Shown here piece by piece: positions 32,000 to 42,570 of a DNA stretch of 64,000 nucleotides (position 1 is its first letter; each line of letters starts with the position of its first letter). Under the pieces are notes generated by a model. The model was given only the letters and a program-made list of their open reading frames with translations, did not search any database and was not told the origin of the DNA. The DNA comes from Leucogyrophana mollusca (lineage: Eukaryota > Basidiomycota > Agaricomycetes > Boletales), in NCBI GenBank assembly GCA_021014945.1, contig MU266344.1, positions 1-64,000 of the forward strand, in the 5' to 3' direction. The position numbers and the translations under genes are program-made.

Positions 32000-33468
32000 T
32001 TACGGGAGGAATGCAGGATGCAGAGACAAGGACTCGTTTCCTCGATCGACAGACTACATGTCACACAAGGGCTAAATCAGAATTTACGGGTTCTCAGGAT
32101 GACCTCGGTCTTCCAAAGGTTCGGTTCGGCCCAAGATGGGATTCAAAACGCCCGGAAGGTGCGTGACTGCGTAGGCTTGATAGCGAGGCGGAGCTTGACA
32201 GGCCAATCCGAGTCAGCTTGCAAAGTCCCACCTGTATGGTACACCAGCGTTATCATATGAGGCCCTGAAGACCGTGGGCCACGTCTTGGCGACGCTGGCG
32301 ATGCACTCACTGATGGCCAGGGCCGAGACACATTCCTTGAACAATGTGGCAGGATACGGAACCAAATGTAGAATCCTGGCAAAAAAAAATCAAAATATCA
32401 GATATGCTGCAAATGCTGTCTCCATGCGCAGCGAGGAAAACGCGCTTTGGCAGCAACTGAGATCTCACGAGTTCACGAAGTACTGGTATGCTCACCACAA
32501 TGAAGAAGTTCATTTTGGCTTCTACCGGGTCCGCTTGGTCACAAGAATTGTGTGACATATATATTCGCTCAGCGCGCACGGCTTAGATTCGGATATGCAT
32601 GGGGCCAGGAGAACCAGAGTGTCCAATATCAAGGTCGATAACCGGTGATGGACTGAAGAACGAATCGGTGCGGTGGCGGGGATTCCGCGGGAAGGTGAGA
32701 TGTACATACCTTGTTTGGTTGTCTGGCAACCTACACCATCTTGCATCAACCTTTCTTTTGTCCCACCATGTCATGTCTTTCAACCGCCGCTGCTTGCGTA
32801 CCAGCTCTACGGTAAACAGATAATGCTGAGATGGTGGACCTCCAATCTTGAGCTATAGATCGCGTGCCCTCCACGCACGCACGTCGGACGCCGCAGTGCC
32901 TCGCTCACTGGAACATACCAGGTTAAAGGATTGAAGGACATTGGACCCCGCCTCTTGGACGAGGTATTCTTAGCACCTCTCCTTAACTTCATCGGATAAC
33001 ATTTGGTGTACAATGATTCCCCACGCCCACACCTTCGCATGACTGGCTGTGCGTTATCAGATACCGGTAATACTGGCGCAGGCTTGGCCATTCTCCAAAA
33101 CTCACACAGAAGAGCAATTCACATGGAGCGGACGTCCAATCTGATAATCTCCCATCAGTCGTATTCCTTGTCGCTCGGAGGAGATCTGTGTTCCCATGGA
33201 CGTCTATCTGCCACTCCGCTGTGCTTACTGGGGGTGCCACTGCACATTGCTTCAACTCAATCCGCGCGGCCGTGCATCGTGCCACCTACGCTTAGGCACT
33301 CTGATAGGCGCGCATCTGCCACGAACTGCCGGTTCTCTGGTCACTCGCGGGAGTGTACGCTGTCCTTGCCACAGTGCATCGATGTTTCCCTGCCAACTAC
33401 TTCAAGAGGCGTTACCATTTGTCCGTTTCTTCCTCCAATATCATGGCCAAATTTTCTGGGCGACAGAC
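32000..33468. other. Left flank of the transposon, no gene recognised
   Basis: No frame shows recognisable domains. It ends in the ACAT target-site duplication that borders the element at 33473. The few frames above 100 codons near 33003-33635 run into the terminal inverted repeat and are shadows of it. Confidence 0.4.
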
Positions 33469-33472
33469 ACAT
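33469..33472. repeat. Left target-site duplication (ACAT)
   Basis: ACAT directly precedes the element and is repeated directly after its right end at 38610-38613. The sequences beyond differ, so the duplication is four bases. Confidence 0.65.
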
Positions 33473-33678
33473 GTACGAATGGCGAGGAGTGCATGGATCG
33501 ATTCTGGGTGAGCGCCACAGCCACACGTGGATCGCGCGTTCGATCCCGCCGCCTGCCGCGTTGTTTCGAATGTACCTACGTCGTTTTCTCCCTTGGGATA
33601 ATTTCCTAAGCTCTACCAGTACTGTAGGATCGTAGATAGCATAGTGTTATGCTCATATAAAATGTAATCGTGCAACTT
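33473..33678 (+). repeat. Left terminal inverted repeat (206 bp)
   Basis: Reverse-complement of 38404-38609 with no gaps and about nine substitutions, mostly transitions (about 95.6% identity by eye). It starts GTACGAATGG and ends TGCAACTT. It holds a tRNA-like pair of boxes (TGGGTGAGCGCC and GCGTTCGATCCC). Confidence 0.9.
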
Positions 33679-33794
33679 TGGCAAGTTTTGACTCGAAAAA
33701 CACCTCACAAGTGTACTCTACTCAGGCTGTGCAAATGAAGTTGGTTTCGAAGGCCAATCACACGGTATGTACATCTGCCCCTTCTCATCTACTT

Positions 33795-35451
33795 ATGCCA
33801 AATCCCACTGGACAAAACCAATGGGGCAAGAAAGAATGTAAGTTTCAGACTGCTAGCGGGTTCACTTTGCACTGACAAAACTTGGAGCTGCAGACCCACC
33901 AGATGACGAGCTTCGTGCAGCGTTTGCACAATACTCACGAGAGAACAATGGTTCAGGCTTGTCAGCCGATGATCAGATGGCACGCCTCAACAAAGAGTTC
34001 AACCTGGACATCAAGTGAGTTCACACCTCCGAGTCCTCTCATGAAATAGCAGGCCATGAACTCAACCATATCACCTGTGATACTATCAAGGCGCCGTAAG
34101 TTGTTCACACTTCGTAAACAGCTAGGCGTGGAAAGTGTTCGGAAACCTGCCAATTCGTCGCCTCAGGAGCGCATGCAAGCCGTAATCGACATCAAGAAAG
34201 ACGACCTTTCAGGGAAATGGGGTGTTGCACAGGTTCGTCAACGCCTGGCCAATCAAGGAAAGCTCCTCAAACGGTGCGGTTTGTGTTCCTTCCTTACTGT
34301 GGCCTCAATTGCTCAGCAGGTTCGGTCCAGTGACGACGTTCGGCAGATTTTGCATGATCACTATGACGTGGAATTTGACAAGCGGTTTGTGGGATCTAAA
34401 GACGCCATTGATCGTGTTCCGTTAGATTGTCTAGGCACCTGGCATGAGCAGCACGCCGACGGCCATGAAAAATTGGCAGAACAAGCCATCAGAATGGGAG
34501 GGGACGTTTCCCTTCCAATATATGCGTTCAAAGATAAATACTCGACTTTTGTGCCATATATGCGAGTGCTCCCCAATGTCCGCCTGTCAAATGTCATCGG
34601 ACACGTCTTTCTAGATCTTGTGGAGACGTATGGTTGTATGTACTGTCTTATTTTCCACGATGTTCCTAATAGTTCTATCTAGGTGTTCCCATTCAGCTCA
34701 CGACAGACAAAGGATCAGAAATTGGTGACATGGTGCGATGCCACGAGCGGCTTCGGTGAGGCGCATGTACACATGGTTTCTTTTTTCGGTTAACAGGTAT
34801 GATTAGACTGGATGCAGCACCTGAATATACCCTCGACAAATGGCCGGCAGCTGTTCAAGTACAGAGCAAACATAATACACCCATTGAAGGCTTCTGGAGA
34901 TGGAAGCGTGCCGGAGAGGGACATAGCATCCGCGAAGCAATTTTTATTGGTAAGGATAACGGGCTTTTCAATCCAAACAGCCCGCTCCATGTGTGTGTCT
35001 TGTTTAGCTCTACTCCCGAGCCGCATTTAATGAACTAACATCCCCATCGTGGGGGATACGAAACAGAAATGTCTTCAACTGGCTTTGGCCACCTTTGGTA
35101 CAAGAGCGGCTGGATGAGTTTCGTGAATACTGGAACAACCACCGGCTCTCGACACAGAAGAAGAAACTCCTTCCTACTGGGACGTCACCAAGACAGCTCT
35201 GGCTGGCACCAGAAAGTGCACGGGCCACTGCACGGGACTGTTCGATTGCTGTTGACATGCGCTTAGTACAGCAGCTTCGTGAGGCATTGGGTGGTAGGGA
35301 GGCAAGAGACCTTGCATTCCGCTTCGTTGATGCTGAATTCGAAGCCATGGCTGATGAGGCACTTGGTGGACTAGAATTTCCAGATATCACACTGTCGAGT
35401 GCATGGGATGTTTTTGTGGCTATTGTTGACACTCTTTCTCGCTCAGAGTAG
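33795..35451 (+). CDS. DDE transposase, fungal integrase-core family
   Basis: Seven exons: 33795-33837, 33894-34014, 34091-34273, 34331-34632, 34683-34755, 34807-34992, 35067-35451; 430 aa, no stops. It starts MPNPTGQNQWGKKEYPPDDE. An N-terminal region (LNKEFNLDIK/RRKLFTLRKQLGV) looks like a helix-turn-helix. The catalytic triad reads Asp159 in HADGHEKL, Asp225 in LTTDKGSEIGDM and Glu268 in HNTPIEGFWRW, a D-66-D-43-E spacing typical of RNase H-fold recombinases. Further blocks are GGDVSLPIYAFKDKYSTF, VRLSNVIGHVFLDLVETYG, VFNWLWPPLVQERLDEFREY and NNHRLSTQKKKLLPTG. The exon 5/6 join uses the acceptor GATTAG, and the exon 6 donor is GTGTCT after CATGT. Expected role: cutting and joining the ends of the surrounding element. 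Confidence 0.85.
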
Positions 35452-35735
35452 ATACCAGATCCTTTCCGCATATCACTATTTCTGCAGCACCTCATTCATC
35501 GGCATCTGAACATGTAATAAGACCTGCGAAACCAATCCGATTATGGCCTCAGTGCAGTGTACCGTAGGAAATATGTACTAGCGGGGGAGCGAAACACCAT
35601 GCCAACCACAATGGACTATGTCTTGGGACACTGCTTGCAAATGTGAAGTGTTCCGTGAGCCGAGTACCAAGAACCTTAAAGTCACACTTGTGTTCCAAAC
35701 ACTCCGGTGACCACCCTTACCCTTCTGTTATCCAA

Positions 35736-38167
35736 ATGGCAGAGTCCGCTGTCGTCAACAGTAAGGCCTGTGGTGGCCCCGAGAATGCTGCTGATGGATG
35801 TTGTGTCACATTCCCTCGTATGGCACCTGGGGAACTGCTGTGTTTCCTCTGCAAAAAGCTGAAGGCACCGGGCCTGACACCAATGGCAAGGGAGATCATC
35901 CAGGTATGGCAATATCCATCCACGAAGTACCCACCTTGACTATGAACCTGGTTTGCGCTCTGATAGGACTCCCACAAGCAGTGTTCAGAGTGTGGCCTTT
36001 GCGGGACAATGATTACCGATCCATGTGGCACCTGTAAACGGCTGGGTAAGTTTACACTGGCAGTCACCAGTGAAGTGGAATCAGCGGTTGACAAGTGTAT
36101 GACCTACATAGCACATCAAGAAAATGGTGTCGTAGATCCAACATCCCTTGCAGCACAGGCACGCCGAAGGAGCACCATTGAGGGTCGCCTGCATCGGCCA
36201 CTTGGGGCAGCAACTGCCGAGAGTGATCTAAGTAACCTCCGCACCAACACAGGAAAGACAGGAACATTTACTGTCCTCGTGGAATGTCGTCGCAGTAATA
36301 ATGCTTCGTCAGTTGACAGGGTTTTAGGTAAAAGTTGTGTGCCCTACCCAGAGACAATGAGCTTTCTTGGTACGCAGTACATCTCAAATGCTATCAGCCC
36401 TTCTGATGTTCATTGATGATCTTATATAGCCTTGAAAGAACATATTGTGGCCGACGTGAACCCAAGATGGACCAAGACCCACTCGGCAGATTTACAACCG
36501 TATGTACTCTGCAGCTTGACCCCTTAAGTGACGAATCACTGAATACATAAGTTGTCAGTGATGAAACCGAACTTCGAGTGCATGGAAATCTGACCATGCC
36601 AGCTGACACTGACACCCTGACCATTCGAGAATGGTTCAACCTATACAACCGGCCTGGGACACAAGAAAGTTTCATTCACACCCCAGCCGGGATGGGAAAG
36701 ATCGCAAAGGGGACAGCGTTCTCTCTCGAGTTGTTTATTCACGTTGACCAGGTGAGTGACCCACATACCCTACCGCAACCCCCAGACATAATGGCAGTAT
36801 CTTCAGTATTTAACTCGCACAAATGAGAATGGTTGCGAGAGTAGCCGCAGGGTATCTGGATCGACCATTGGCAACAAGAGGAAGCGGACAGGTGGGAAAG
36901 AAAATCAGTCAAGTGTTGGGCCTGGTGTCGGATCAAAAAGGGCTCGTGGTGCGTCGAAAACAACAGTGCCTTCTGTCGTTTTGAATGCTAACACTAATTT
37001 TGGCTTACCTTTCAGGTAATGACAACGTAGTGTTGAAGAGCACGTTCTTACCCGATGCCAGTTTGACTGCTGAGACGCTTGCAGTTTCGACGGCAGACAA
37101 GATTCAGTTCAAGCGCACCATTTGCACCATCAATCCGGAGACAGGTGGTCCATCACTCACCGAGCTGTCCAACACAGAAGCGGGCTTTCTAGAGACAAAA
37201 ACCATGGCACTCTCGATTTCTGAACGTGGAAAGACGAAAGACGTCTATCTGGTATGTTAAGCACCTTCTTATTCCTTGCAATGTAATCAAATCTCCTCGC
37301 AGCTCACAATTTCAGATAAGGAATATGTTGCAAAGAAGCTAATAGACATTGGAAACGGCCGTGAAGATGTGGAATTGGATGAAGCCAGTCGCTATCTCAC
37401 CGCTGATCTGATCCGACTGAAAAGAATGGCACATTTTGCGTCACTGTTCCATGCTCGTGCCACAAAAGAGGGAACAGAAACCACACGTACGTCTTGAGTT
37501 TACCATGCTGCTATTTATTGATCTCACCCATCCTAGCCTTTCAAGTTTCCGATGGTTTTCTCATCAAAGTATACCGAGACGTACCGCCCGCAGTGTCTGT
37601 GCCCAACTCAGCAGATCCTATTGAAGCCGAACTCGAGCAGCCGCTGGCTGGTGGTAGCGCTGGCCATGGTGGGCTGGACTCAGTCTTCCTGGTTGAACCT
37701 CGTCGCATGTCATCAGCTGTTCTTAAATTTTCCGGCACAATCGGAATGCGCAATCACATTGATAAGCGCTCCGCAACAATCATGGCATTCAGCCATTTCG
37801 TCCTGGAGAATACGGCCTGTGAATACATGTTTGCCGATATCCAAGGTGAGCCTCCCTGTCCATCACCACCGTTTACTCAGTCCGAGGCGTGATACTTGTA
37901 GGATCTGTTGACCGTGGTATTCTACGAGAACAAGCGCTTGTCCTCACACTGTTCGACCCCATGACACATACTCCACGCGGGTCAGTACCACTTCGCTTCG
38001 AACTCATTCATGTTGATTCATTTTTCTCCAGGGAGTCTGGGATGGGGGATTTCGGCCTAGAGGGTTTGCAGGATTTTGCTACATCACATCAATGCACCAA
38101 CATCTGCCACTCCCTCGGACTGTGTGCAACATCTGCCATCCAAGAGACGCTTGATCAGATGAACTGA
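35736..38167 (+). CDS. Alpha-type (atypical) protein kinase encoded within the transposon
   Basis: Ten exons: 35736-35903, 35967-36327, 36430-36499, 36559-36751, 36807-36948, 37016-37251, 37303-37486, 37537-37845, 37902-37980, 38032-38167; 625 aa, frame intact. The N-terminus is cysteine-rich: CGGPENAADGCC, CFLCKKL and CSECGLCGTMITDPCGTC (about residues 62-79), possibly zinc-binding. A middle basic stretch NKRKRTGGKENQ...SKRARG (about 287-312) looks like a bipartite nuclear signal. The C-terminal half is an alpha-kinase catalytic domain: SSAVLKFSGTIGMRNHIDKR, FADIQG, LTLFDPMTHTPRG, ESGMGDFGLEGLQDFATSHQ, then CTNICHSL, the glycine-rich GxGDxG loop and the HxCxxxC zinc module of the family. These kinases phosphorylate Ser/Thr and are unrelated in sequence to conventional kinases. 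The substrate is unknown. Confidence 0.85.
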
Positions 38168-38403
38168 GCGTTTGGTTCGTCGTGATCAAAGCGCCAACCT
38201 ATTGAAGTACCAGTACTATAATTGAACCCACATCAGTAGTAGCCTACTAGCACATACGCAACAGTTAGCCCATACTTAGCACGCATTAATTCATGGACCA
38301 CTCGACACATACCTCGTCGACTCAGACACATTTTCTCGAGATTATAAAAGCTCCAGGGCCACCGGGGGTGAAGCAATATGCTGAACTCAGGAATGGACAC
38401 TCG

Positions 38404-38609
38404 AAGTTGCACAATTACATTTAATATGAGCACAACACTATGCTATCTATGGTCCTACAGTACTGGTAGAGCTTAGGAAATTATCCCAAGGGAGAAAACG
38501 ACATAGATACATTCGAAACAATGCGGCAGGCGACGGGATCGAACGCGCGATCCACGTGTGGCTGTGGCGCTCACCCAGAATCGATCCATGCACTCCTCGC
38601 CATTCGTAC
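38404..38609 (-). repeat. Right terminal inverted repeat (206 bp)
   Basis: Inverted copy of 33473-33678, same length. It begins (inner side) AAGTTGCACAATTACA and ends CGCCATTCGTAC. It is followed by the second ACAT at 38610-38613. Confidence 0.9.
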
Positions 38610-38613
38610 ACAT
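38610..38613. repeat. Right target-site duplication (ACAT)
   Basis: Directly abuts the right inverted repeat and matches 33469-33472. Confidence 0.65.
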
Positions 38614-39760
38614 GTTTTAAACTCGTCTTCCACGAAAACACTTTATAAGGGGCAACACCGTCAACGGGAAACCTTCATCAGACAGTCCATAAAACGATGT
38701 TTTCGAACTTAACACTGAAGCTGCGTCACTAGCTCGATTTCAACACGCGCCCAAAGCCAGGATTGACGCGTTGCTCGAAAAGGAGTGGAACACATCTCAC
38801 GGCGATCTTCCCTCCATGTGGTACTTGGTTCGGTAACTCCATTCAGGCAAGGGAGAAGGGTTTCTCGGCAACGTGAGCAGAATCTGAGCGCTTCCTGCGA
38901 TGCTCGGTGGTGTGCGCGGTGTTCGATTCTCTGATGCCGCAGGTCAAAAATAGGCTCACCACTCTCGGAGCCGCCAAGAAAGCTAAGGTGAACTTGTTTG
39001 GTTTCGCTTCCATTTGAACTTGTGGTTTTTCTGTGAGTGATTTACTCTACGACAGCAGCGGTGAACCTTGGTCCAACACATGTTCACACGTAGAATGCCC
39101 GTCTTACTGGCATGACCGAGCAAGATCATTCGGAGATGCAGGCACTCGGCTGTCACATCAAGTATTGCTTGCCGGTGATGCGACACCATCGCCAAAACAC
39201 CGCGCATGTGGACATACTATGGCTCCGGTTGCCTAGTCTAGACTTTATCATAGTTTTTAGCATGCGAATGAGGTTCCGCGGCGATTGATACATCCGGTAT
39301 GTGGCTGCACATCCTTGTTATCAGATATGCCTGCTCCCATGCTCTTCCGCGTCACTGATTGAGTTCTCCCGACACGGATAGATCACTCCCACAGCGTTTT
39401 ATGGGTGCGTCTGCGTCTCACGGATTGTAGTTGCTGGCTCCCGGATTCAGTATTACCTGCTTTCCACGCCTGTTAAGTTAGCTGACGCGTGTTCATCGTA
39501 AAGTTATGAATCATTGAATGATGAGCTGCATACGAAGGCAGTGGTTTCTTGGAAACTGGACGAGCTCTATGTGAACAGGCCAAATCACATCCCTAGCATT
39601 CAGTTAGCTAGATTAGATCTCTGCTCGAAGAATGCCAACAGGTGCTCAGGATTATTAGCATCAAGCGCTCTTAAGCAGTCTCAAGCCCTTGTCACAGGCG
39701 CAGTACGTAAGTGGCGCACAAGTAAACCATCAAAGCGACTCGACGTCAACTCGGATAAGC
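38614..39760. other. Right flank of the transposon, no gene recognised
   Basis: A plus-strand segment near 38715-38835 reads LARFQHAPKARIDALLEKEW in one frame, followed by a stop. It may be a broken coding fragment but I cannot name it. The rest has only short frames. The right end is upstream of the SDR gene. Confidence 0.35.
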
Positions 39761-40829
39761 ATGAGCTCGAGTAAAGTTGTGCTGGTCACCGGATGCTCGA
39801 AAGGCGGCATTGGTTTTCATCTGTAAATCACCACAGTCATCTTTGCCCTCTTGAGCTCGACTAAGCACATTTTCTCTCTTTTTGACAGGTGTGAACGTTT
39901 CGCAGACCAAGGATGCGTGGTCTATGCGACATCACGCAGACTTGAGACTATGCAAGGGTTTGCCCATTCAAGCATTCGGACGCTTTCTTTGGATGTCACT
40001 AGTGACGAAAGTGTCCAATCTGCGGTGCAGCATATATTGGAAGAAAGCGGGAAGATCGATATTGTCGTCAACAATGCTGGGGCCCTTGCAATTGGTACGT
40101 TCAACCTCTTGCCCGGGCCGGTGGAAGAGCCTCGTCGAGACAGGAACCTTGCAGAGTACTGAAAGTTGGGCTCGGATAATGCAGGACCTTTAATCGAAGT
40201 TTCGATTGACCAAGTCAAGAAAGCCTTTGACACAAATACGTTCTCCGCTTTGCGTGTAGCAAAAGCAGTGATCCCATCCATGGTAGCCCGTAAGCGTGGT
40301 CTGGTTGTTAACATCGGGTCTATTGCTGGGGAAATGTGAGGACTTTGTGCTTCTTACTAGCCCACCTGGTCTGCAGAATGCTAACTCCACGCGGTGCAGT
40401 CCGACACCATGGAATGGGCTTTACTGCGCGGCTAAGGCAGCGCTTCATTCTCTCAGCAACGTCTTGGCCATGGAATGTCAGCCCTTCGGCGTGGACGTCA
40501 TGCTTGTCGCACCAGGAGGGGTGAGGTCTAATATCGCAATCAATCAAGCAGCTACGCTGGAGCTCTCCTCCGACTCGTTTTACAAGCCCTATATCAACGC
40601 CATTCTGGCCCGTATGAATATCAGCCAGGGGAAGGGGTCTATGGATACAGCAGCTTTCGCCAAACGGGTTGTTCAGAGTGCACTGAGTCCCAAACCCCCT
40701 GCATACATGACTCTCGGTCATAACTCCAGGGTTTTCGCTGTCTTACTATGGTTTCCCCGGCGATTTGTTCGTTGGGTCATCATGCGGACAGTGATGGGCA
40801 AGCCCCAGTCGCCTTCTTCAGCCCCATAG
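39761..40829 (+). CDS. Short-chain dehydrogenase/reductase (AYR1-like)
   Basis: Four exons: 39761-39822, 39889-40094, 40195-?; by frame the third exon runs 40185-40335 and the fourth 40400-40829, giving 282 aa. Classical SDR features: cofactor loop VTGCSKGGIGFHL (TGxxxGIG with one extra Gly), CVVYATSRR, LDVTSDESVQ, VVNNAGALAIGP (NNAG), NIGSIAGEIPTPWNGLYCAAK holding catalytic Ser, Tyr and Lys (YCAAK), and PGGVRSN. The C-terminus ends in a hydrophobic/arginine segment (VFAVLLWFPRRFVRWVIM) suggesting membrane or lipid-droplet association. This layout resembles fungal NADPH-dependent 1-acyldihydroxyacetone-phosphate reductase (Ayr1), where GEIPTPW(N/S)GxYCAAK is typical. That assignment is likely but not certain. 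Confidence 0.85.
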
Positions 40830-41079
40830 ATCTCTGGCATTTGATTCGGACTATACTTTTGATACAACTATTTTGTGAATACGTGGGGTGATTACTTGGG
40901 GGTATCCTATTGGATCCCCCACAGGGAGCCCATAGCCCCCAGCCTTTCAAATATCAGATGCGGGTCTGGCGGGGAAACCTGTCTTCGACTATCCGAGATT
41001 TTGTCTCGACCATGAGAAGTTCTTTCGAAAAAAAAAAAAACGCCCCAGATCTGGCGTCGCGCGTGGAACTAAAATATAC

Positions 41080-42570
41080 CTAGGAATTACCGCCCGCCTT
41101 CTCTTTATTTTTGTTCTTCTTCTTTTTCTTTTGAGAGGCTTCGCCGCCGTCGGAGACACCTAAACTCGCCATGCTGTGATGAGTACTTGTAGGTAGATCG
41201 AGCTCTGCTTGGTCACTAGAACGCTTCCTATTTCCTGAGACAGCCGCGTTGAGTACGTTGTGCGGGGCAGGGTTCTCGGACGATGTTGGCGGTGATTGAG
41301 AATCATTCTGAACTTGTGACAGATTCACGCTGTGGCCCTCATCGCGAGCATCTCCCGTAGGTTGCGGGGTGGGAGCAGGGTCCAGTATTTCTTCGGCCCT
41401 ATTTGGTACCACTAGTCTGGGCTCTGACAGTACTGCGCGATAGGTCCTGCGAGTTTCTGGCAGGGGGCACGATCCATGCGGAAGAGGAGTCTTTGAGTGT
41501 GGATAAAGTTTTAGAGATAGAAGGCACTTACGTGCTCGTAACACAAGAGATTTTGGCACAGATGCTGACGCATCATGTGCAATATTTCGGGCCAAACCCA
41601 GCAGACTTATCCTGGGCGTATCCACGTTAGTAAGATTCGATGAAAAGTTTGGGGAGGGATGAAAAGGGGAGTTTGCGTCCAAAGACGTTGAAAGCGAGCA
41701 CGGAGGTGTAAATTTACTCACAGATTCCCAACATCTTTCGGGGCTCTGTGATCGGCGTCTGTGACAACTCCTCCGCTCACAATGATACCCTTCCCTTTCG
41801 TAACTCGAACGACCTCTCTCGCCGCAGCCCACCAGTTGCGCTTTCCGCTTTCGCCAGAAACATGATTCATTTGACTAGTGTCACCATCACCCCCAATAGC
41901 TCCTGCATAATTGATCTCAAAAACCGCTCCATTCTTAAGAGCAGTCCGGACGAGTGTATGCTTTAGGTGGAATGGCAACCGCGGGAGCGTCAGAGGGAGC
42001 GAAATAACATGAGCGGTCAGTGACGAAGGGAGTGTGTGCGTTAGACATGCAAGAGAAAATGTTGTAGCGGTCGTTGGCGTCAGCGCGATCAGGTCGTATG
42101 GCTCGACAAGAGAAGCGTTAGCATTGGTCTGTTGAGCAAGCGATATTTAGCAAAGGTCGCATAAGAGTTCGAGATGGACCATCACCAAACCAAAGCCCTT
42201 CTCGCTGTCCTCGTCTAGCGTGATGGTGAGCCGTTTCAAGAAAATCACACCTGTCCTCTTCCTAATCTGAGGTAGTAAACTGTCAAGTATATTGACGTGG
42301 CTTTTGGGGTCGAGCCTTTTATCGACGGTTTGATTGAACGCGATGACCGCATATCCTACTGTCCTTTGAAGCTTTAGCTAGTAAAAGGTCGGATTGAACA
42401 CGGAACTAACAATGAACAAGCAAATCCACACGGGTTTCAATAGCCTTGATCTGCGCAAGGGTAAAAGCAACTGAATGGAGTTGCTGCGGTTGTTTCCCTT
42501 TGCTCTTTTTCGAGTGTACTGATCCTTGGAGTCCTAGGTCTGATACCGGTACGTTGAGGTCGAAGAACAT
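41080..42570 (-). CDS. RPP1: RNase P/MRP subunit p30 (Rpp1)
   Basis: Protein subunit of RNase P and RNase MRP, which mature the 5' ends of tRNA and process pre-rRNA. Five exons on the minus strand: 42418-42570, 42186-42377, 41722-42128, 41532-41611, 41080-41456; 402 aa. Family blocks: MFFDLNVPVSD, LHSVAFTLAQIKAIETRVDL, GYAVIAFNQTVDKRLDP, VIFLKRLTITLDED, YDLIALTPTTATTFSLAC, LKNGAVFEINYAGAIGG, GIIVSGGVVTDADHRAPKDV, and LGLARNIAHDASASVPKSLV. The core is a PHP-like barrel. The C-terminal about 100 residues are acidic/serine-rich and end in a lysine-rich KKKKKNKNKEKAGGNS tail. All introns are canonical. Confidence 0.93.

Follow-up and report, generated by a model that had tools for sequence, protein, structure and literature searches.

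A TET-less, probably IS3EU-type DNA transposon with a co-oriented alpha-kinase gene in the Agaricomycete Leucogyrophana mollusca

Introduction

Protein kinases are, to our knowledge, not standard transposon equipment, and the locus described here raises the question of why a transposon would keep one. Within a 64,000-bp stretch of the genome of the wood-decay mushroom Leucogyrophana mollusca (Boletales; positions 1 to 64,000 of contig MU266344.1, assembly GCA_021014945.1; hereafter the window), a 5135-bp element (33474-38608) contains two intact, co-oriented genes between its ends, which encode a DDE transposase and an alpha-kinase. We consider it probable that the element moves by cut and paste as an IS3EU-type DNA transposon and that the alpha-kinase is its standing second gene, co-inherited with the transposase and not a one-off pick-up. 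New here, as far as the literature covered shows, is a TET-less, co-oriented, alpha-kinase-bearing IS3EU-type element in an Agaricomycete, the pairing itself having already appeared in print (Kojima, 2025; PMC12730594).

Boundaries and target duplication

An earlier note on the window, made from its letters, had described one pair of long inverted repeats and a target duplication enclosing two intact, co-oriented genes, a description borne out by the repeat search and the gene models. Within 33200-38900, one inverted repeat with arms of at least 20 bp is listed (33467-33678 and 38404-38615), and the 205-bp terminal inverted repeats (33474-33678 on the forward and 38404-38608 on the reverse strand) are identical at 196 of 205 positions. 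The difference of ~4% between the two ends may reflect ends that were already unlike at insertion. A search of the whole assembly (32.3 Mb in 545 contigs, with the window on C18) with the 228-bp left end returned at least two matches, and those listed are the element's own two ends; repeats flanking many unrelated segments, which the earlier note had named as an outcome that would refute its reading, were rejected on this search.

Abutting the ends is an 8-bp direct repeat, ACACATGT (33467-33474 and 38608-38615). Because this repeat is partly palindromic, the target duplication can be taken as 8 bp, which leaves ACGAATGG ends, as 6 bp (CACATG), which leaves TACGAATGG ends, or as 4 bp (ACAT), which leaves GTACGAATGG ends, and all three readings are exact. 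Comparison of the ends leads us to prefer the 6-bp reading, in which the two copies of CACATG occupy 33468-33473 and 38609-38614, the left inverted repeat starts with TACGAATGG and the right one ends with CCATTCGTA, giving the element TA..TA termini. This reading is favoured because IS3EU elements end in TA..TA and as a rule make duplications of 6 bp (PMC10045372), and because contig C53 of this genome bears a kinase-free element whose ends read TATGACG and whose longest exact repeat is 6 bp (GCGTAC). The 4-bp ACAT duplication of the earlier note is exact, as is the 8-bp one, yet it is one of three such readings and fits less well than 6 bp. Random 6-mers drawn from the window match by chance at a rate of 0.00025.

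The two genes of the element

The transposase gene (33795-35451, forward strand) consists of seven exons (33795-33837, 33894-34014, 34091-34273, 34331-34635, 34683-34755, 34807-34992 and 35067-35448 plus stop), whose edges were set from open frames and from the usual start of such proteins. All six introns are GT-AG, and the spliced product of 430-431 residues differs from the deposited L. mollusca protein model P0001 by a single residue, next to an intron. It matches PF24764 (E 1.7e-12), with further integrase, TnsB and IstA matches, and the DDE residues D159, D225 and E268 (P0001 numbering) are kept in 43 of 43 rows of an alignment (A3) of P0001 and 42 others picked from the homologue list for length and spread. 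By reading, a single Cys (residue 148) precedes the core, and there is no upstream HHCC motif; in this the transposase agrees with IS3EU, which has an integrase-like DDD/E core without upstream HHCC. A gap of just 284 bp (35452-35735), with no TET/JBP gene in it, separates the transposase from the alpha-kinase gene, and on the opposite strand of the element the longest stop-free stretch is at most 161 codons.

The alpha-kinase gene (35736-38167, forward strand) has ten exons, GT-AG boundaries at nine of nine introns and a product of 639 residues, of which 400-620 match PF02816 (E 4.8e-22; 79.4 bits against a curated cut-off of 21.3). The two Pfam matches confirm the identities that the earlier note had given to both proteins. 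The kinase begins with a Cys-rich N-terminus; next come a ubiquitin-like fold, taken from the model of a homologue, and the alpha-kinase domain, whose fold is likewise seen in a homologue's structure model. Retained in the window protein are K415, E519, H552, D566, Q568, D587, H614, C616 and C620, which we take to be the catalytic Lys, Glu, Asp/Gln and Asp and the zinc-ligand His/Cys, and the catalytic residues are conserved in most aligned rows (kinase alignments: A1, the window protein with 21 of the 22 homologues then known, P0142 being left out; A2, 20 of 24 homologues, with P0137, P0141, P0142 and P0144 left out). Fold (as seen in the homologue's model) and catalytic residues are shared with ChaK/TRPM7, eEF2K, MHCK A and ALPK1, from which the element's kinase differs in being transposon-encoded and in its N-terminal Cys-rich region and ubiquitin-like fold.

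Recurrence of the pairing in other mushrooms

A first search gave 22 kinase homologues and a profile search two more, at least 24 distinct ones in all, with ~8000 candidates scored each time; since the profile search added only two proteins, distant relatives such as those of rusts and most Mycena lie outside the reach of these searches. Nine of the 24 lie on the same contig, as judged from equal contig size, as a transposase homologue among the best 120 of 139. These pairs are spread over eight contigs in seven other genera, represented by Hygrophoropsis, Hohenbuehelia, Pleurotus pulmonarius, Amanita muscaria, Jaapia, Athelia and Ganoderma leucocontextum. Locus tags are one to three apart in six of the nine pairs, and one further pair shares a contig of only 8052 bp (Hygrophoropsis); the two linked cases of G. 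leucocontextum, which contributes four of the 24 homologues, are same-contig only. The remaining 15 homologues, three of them without contig data, have no partner among the best 120 of 139 transposases. A kinase placed beside the transposase only at this locus, the other outcome that the earlier note had named as damaging, was not what we found. Because nine linked pairs recur on eight contigs in seven other genera, the kinase looks like a standing component of this transposon lineage, judging from gene linkage in the sequences.

A comparison of kinase and transposase divergence, akin to the comparison of trees which the earlier note had proposed, agrees with joint inheritance: over 10 pairs, one of them the window's, kinase distances are correlated with transposase distances (Mantel r 0.77, p 0.0002), also when Ganoderma is omitted (r 0.54, p 0.006; eight pairs), although host descent could explain part of this correlation. 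Yet in Hohenbuehelia grisea, which has two pairs, pair A is closer to Amanita than to pair B in both proteins (70 vs 59% and 56 vs 52%). In a midpoint-rooted transposase tree built by a quick method from 118 of the 120 listed proteins (two shorter than 290 residues were dropped), all 10 linked transposases fall into one 51-row group (SH-aLRT 100), with 8 of 16 rows in the window's branch, 2 of 5 in a branch that includes Ganoderma and none of 30 in a Mycena/Tulasnella branch, and none of the 67 rows outside this group is linked. The kinase-linked label requires seven changes on the tree, with 'not found' scored as absent although the two are not equal, and 2 of 500 shuffles gave as few.

Relationship to described transposons

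The earlier note knew of no described superfamily with this pairing, a claim contradicted by the TET+ IS3EU families, all of which bear transposase, TET and alpha-kinase genes (PMC12730594). These elements are known from rust fungi and Tuber, mostly from rusts, and 'alpha-kinase' appears in two sentences of the available text (PMC12730594). They share with the element the combination of a DDE transposase and an alpha-kinase in one element and, under the 6-bp reading, 6-bp duplications, and their rust termini (TAYGG..CCRTA) agree with TACGA..TCGTA in four of five letters under the same reading. They differ in that the TET/JBP gene sits between the two other genes, which are oppositely oriented, whereas the element lacks TET and its genes are co-oriented; this likeness is drawn from the published description. 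The ends and the duplication, under the 6-bp reading, and the published pairing (PMC12730594) point to IS3EU, and assignment to an unknown superfamily was rejected.

Complete IS3EU/GingerRoot families share with the element an integrase-like DDE core without upstream HHCC and, if its duplication is read as 6 bp, TA..TA ends and usually 6-bp duplications, but a kinase gene is not mentioned in the available text (PMC10045372). Styx of Zymoseptoria resembles the element in a transposase that its authors link to IS3EU, in extra genes between inverted repeats and, under the 6-bp reading, in 6-bp duplications, but differs in having 36-bp repeats and four genes, the extra ones with GATA, CCHC and DUF3577 domains and no kinase named (PMC10853768). 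IS3EU elements have been annotated in G. leucocontextum, in greater number than in other Ganoderma (PMC8955403), and in Phlebopus portentosus, another member of the Boletales (PMC12411881), with no alpha-kinase mentioned in the available portions of either report. In the open-licence literature covered, the transposase/alpha-kinase pairing was not found beyond Kojima (2025), nor was a description of the TET-less, co-oriented Agaricomycete form, its breadth or its domain architecture.

Related loci and a paralogous stretch in the same genome

A search of the genome with the kinase protein gave eight matches, all inside the element's kinase gene, and the PF02816 profile detected two loci, the element's kinase and one on C255. 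The suggestion of the earlier note that such elements drive the alpha-kinase expansions of Agaricomycetes is not demonstrated here, with one of the two PF02816 loci in an element. The PF24764 profile pointed to four further contigs (C298, C308, C53 and C362), and no kinase match was found near these loci in the stretches examined. In C53, C298 and C308 alike, an opposite-strand gene with BTB-like matches precedes the transposase, after which comes a second reading frame in the orientation of the transposase. The BTB-like matches exceed the Pfam cut-off in C53 and C308 and stay below it in C298; no Pfam match was found in the tested pieces of the C53 and C298 second frames, the latter being covered in part. 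These three loci have in common with the element the PF24764 transposase and a co-oriented second frame after it, and differ in the missing kinase match and in the BTB-like gene before the transposase. The C53 element (L017:2819-8697) further has TA..TA ends and a 6-bp duplication, as does the element of the window under the 6-bp reading, and its inverted repeats are ~180 bp long. Since C53, C298 and C308 combine their transposases with a BTB-like gene and a second frame, and gave no kinase match, PF24764 loci in this genome are accompanied by different second genes.

The element is flanked by a segmental duplication of ~80% identity (window 32383-42066 against C139, L040), whose C139 copy is without the element. 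Within this paralogous stretch, ~80% identity extends along 1.05 kb to the left and 2.98 kb to the right, with ~60 bp left and ~100 bp right of the insertion point unaligned, together with more pieces on the right. Because these parts fail to align, C139 was rejected as a base-exact empty site, and of the check proposed in the earlier note only the existence of an element-free counterpart stands. The sequence comparison supports insertion without fixing the exact site; loss of the element from C139 is a possible alternative.

Possible roles of the kinase

In the mechanism that we propose, the transposase would cut at the TA..TA ends, move the element and leave 6-bp duplications, the linked pairs of other mushrooms would likewise lie between common ends, and the kinase would be active and work in trans for the element. 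Its most likely target would be a nuclear factor of the host by which transposition is restrained, through silencing, repair or ubiquitin pathways; we give this somewhat less than even odds, because the kinase is coupled to a ubiquitin-like fold and a Cys-rich module and because the published relatives have, between the same two genes, a TET dioxygenase proposed to counter silencing (PMC12730594). The modelled ubiquitin-like fold would suit docking in ubiquitin or chromatin complexes, though fold similarity is no proof of function. The element's own transposase is the next most likely target, with a somewhat lower probability. The specific form of this idea, in which the kinase phosphorylates the transposase and thereby switches its activity, assembly or nuclear entry for copy-number or timing control, is less likely than not: the two genes adjoin in the same orientation, the distances of their products correlate and the Hohenbuehelia pairs show the same order in both proteins, but co-transmission by itself would yield the same correlation, and many related transposases (among the best 120 of 139) were found without a kinase partner.

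Two further explanations would deny the kinase any part in transposition. One element might have captured a host alpha-kinase between its ends as a passenger, as accessory genes such as TET are described as passively transferred from one transposon lineage to another (PMC12730594) and this genome has, on C53, an element with ends of this kind but without a kinase; this is improbable given the nine linked pairs, the correlated distances, the catalytic residues conserved in most rows and the confinement of all eight genome matches to the element's own gene. The kinase might even be an unrelated host gene next to a transposase-only element, the repeats only seemingly enclosing both. The inexact fit of the C139 site leaves some room for such a chance neighbourhood, but we regard it as very improbable, as both genes lie inside the outer repeats and the duplication, no second inverted pair of at least 20 bp is listed in 33200-38900 and the linkage recurs in other genera.

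A co-inherited kinase, if confirmed, would amount to a novel type of transposon helper, kept beside the transposase across mushroom genera and with a testable target. The 2025 remark (PMC12730594) lessens the surprise, and the question of what makes a transposon retain a kinase can now be put to a direct test. Rusts are described as having a greatly expanded alpha-kinase family, which Microbotryomycetes lack (PMC4469406), and fungal alpha-kinase counts would be read differently, as rusts are also where most TET+ IS3EU elements are reported, each with an alpha-kinase gene (PMC12730594). A wider proposal, to which we give somewhat less than even weight, is that an ancient lineage across Agaricomycetes (and, following Kojima, rusts and truffle) depends on its own Cys-rich/ubiquitin-fold/alpha-kinase protein to modify a host or transposase target, and that much of the reported fungal alpha-kinase expansion would consist of transposon genes counted as host signalling genes.

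Additional observations

No tRNA genes were found in the window and no Rfam families in 33000-39100. The second alpha-kinase locus (C255:36762-37802; L014:8398-9438) is close to a contig end, and the 10 kb around it, near that end, showed neither an inverted repeat nor any match to the two element proteins. The second frames of C53 and C308 have an N-terminal Cys cluster patterned CxC..PP..CxEC, and the Cys-rich start of the element's kinase (residues 12-80) loosely resembles their Cys spacing. The inverted repeat of C298 extends to the contig end, and those of C53 (L017 2819-2999 and 8519-8697) hold short internal repeats, which are candidate transposase binding sites.

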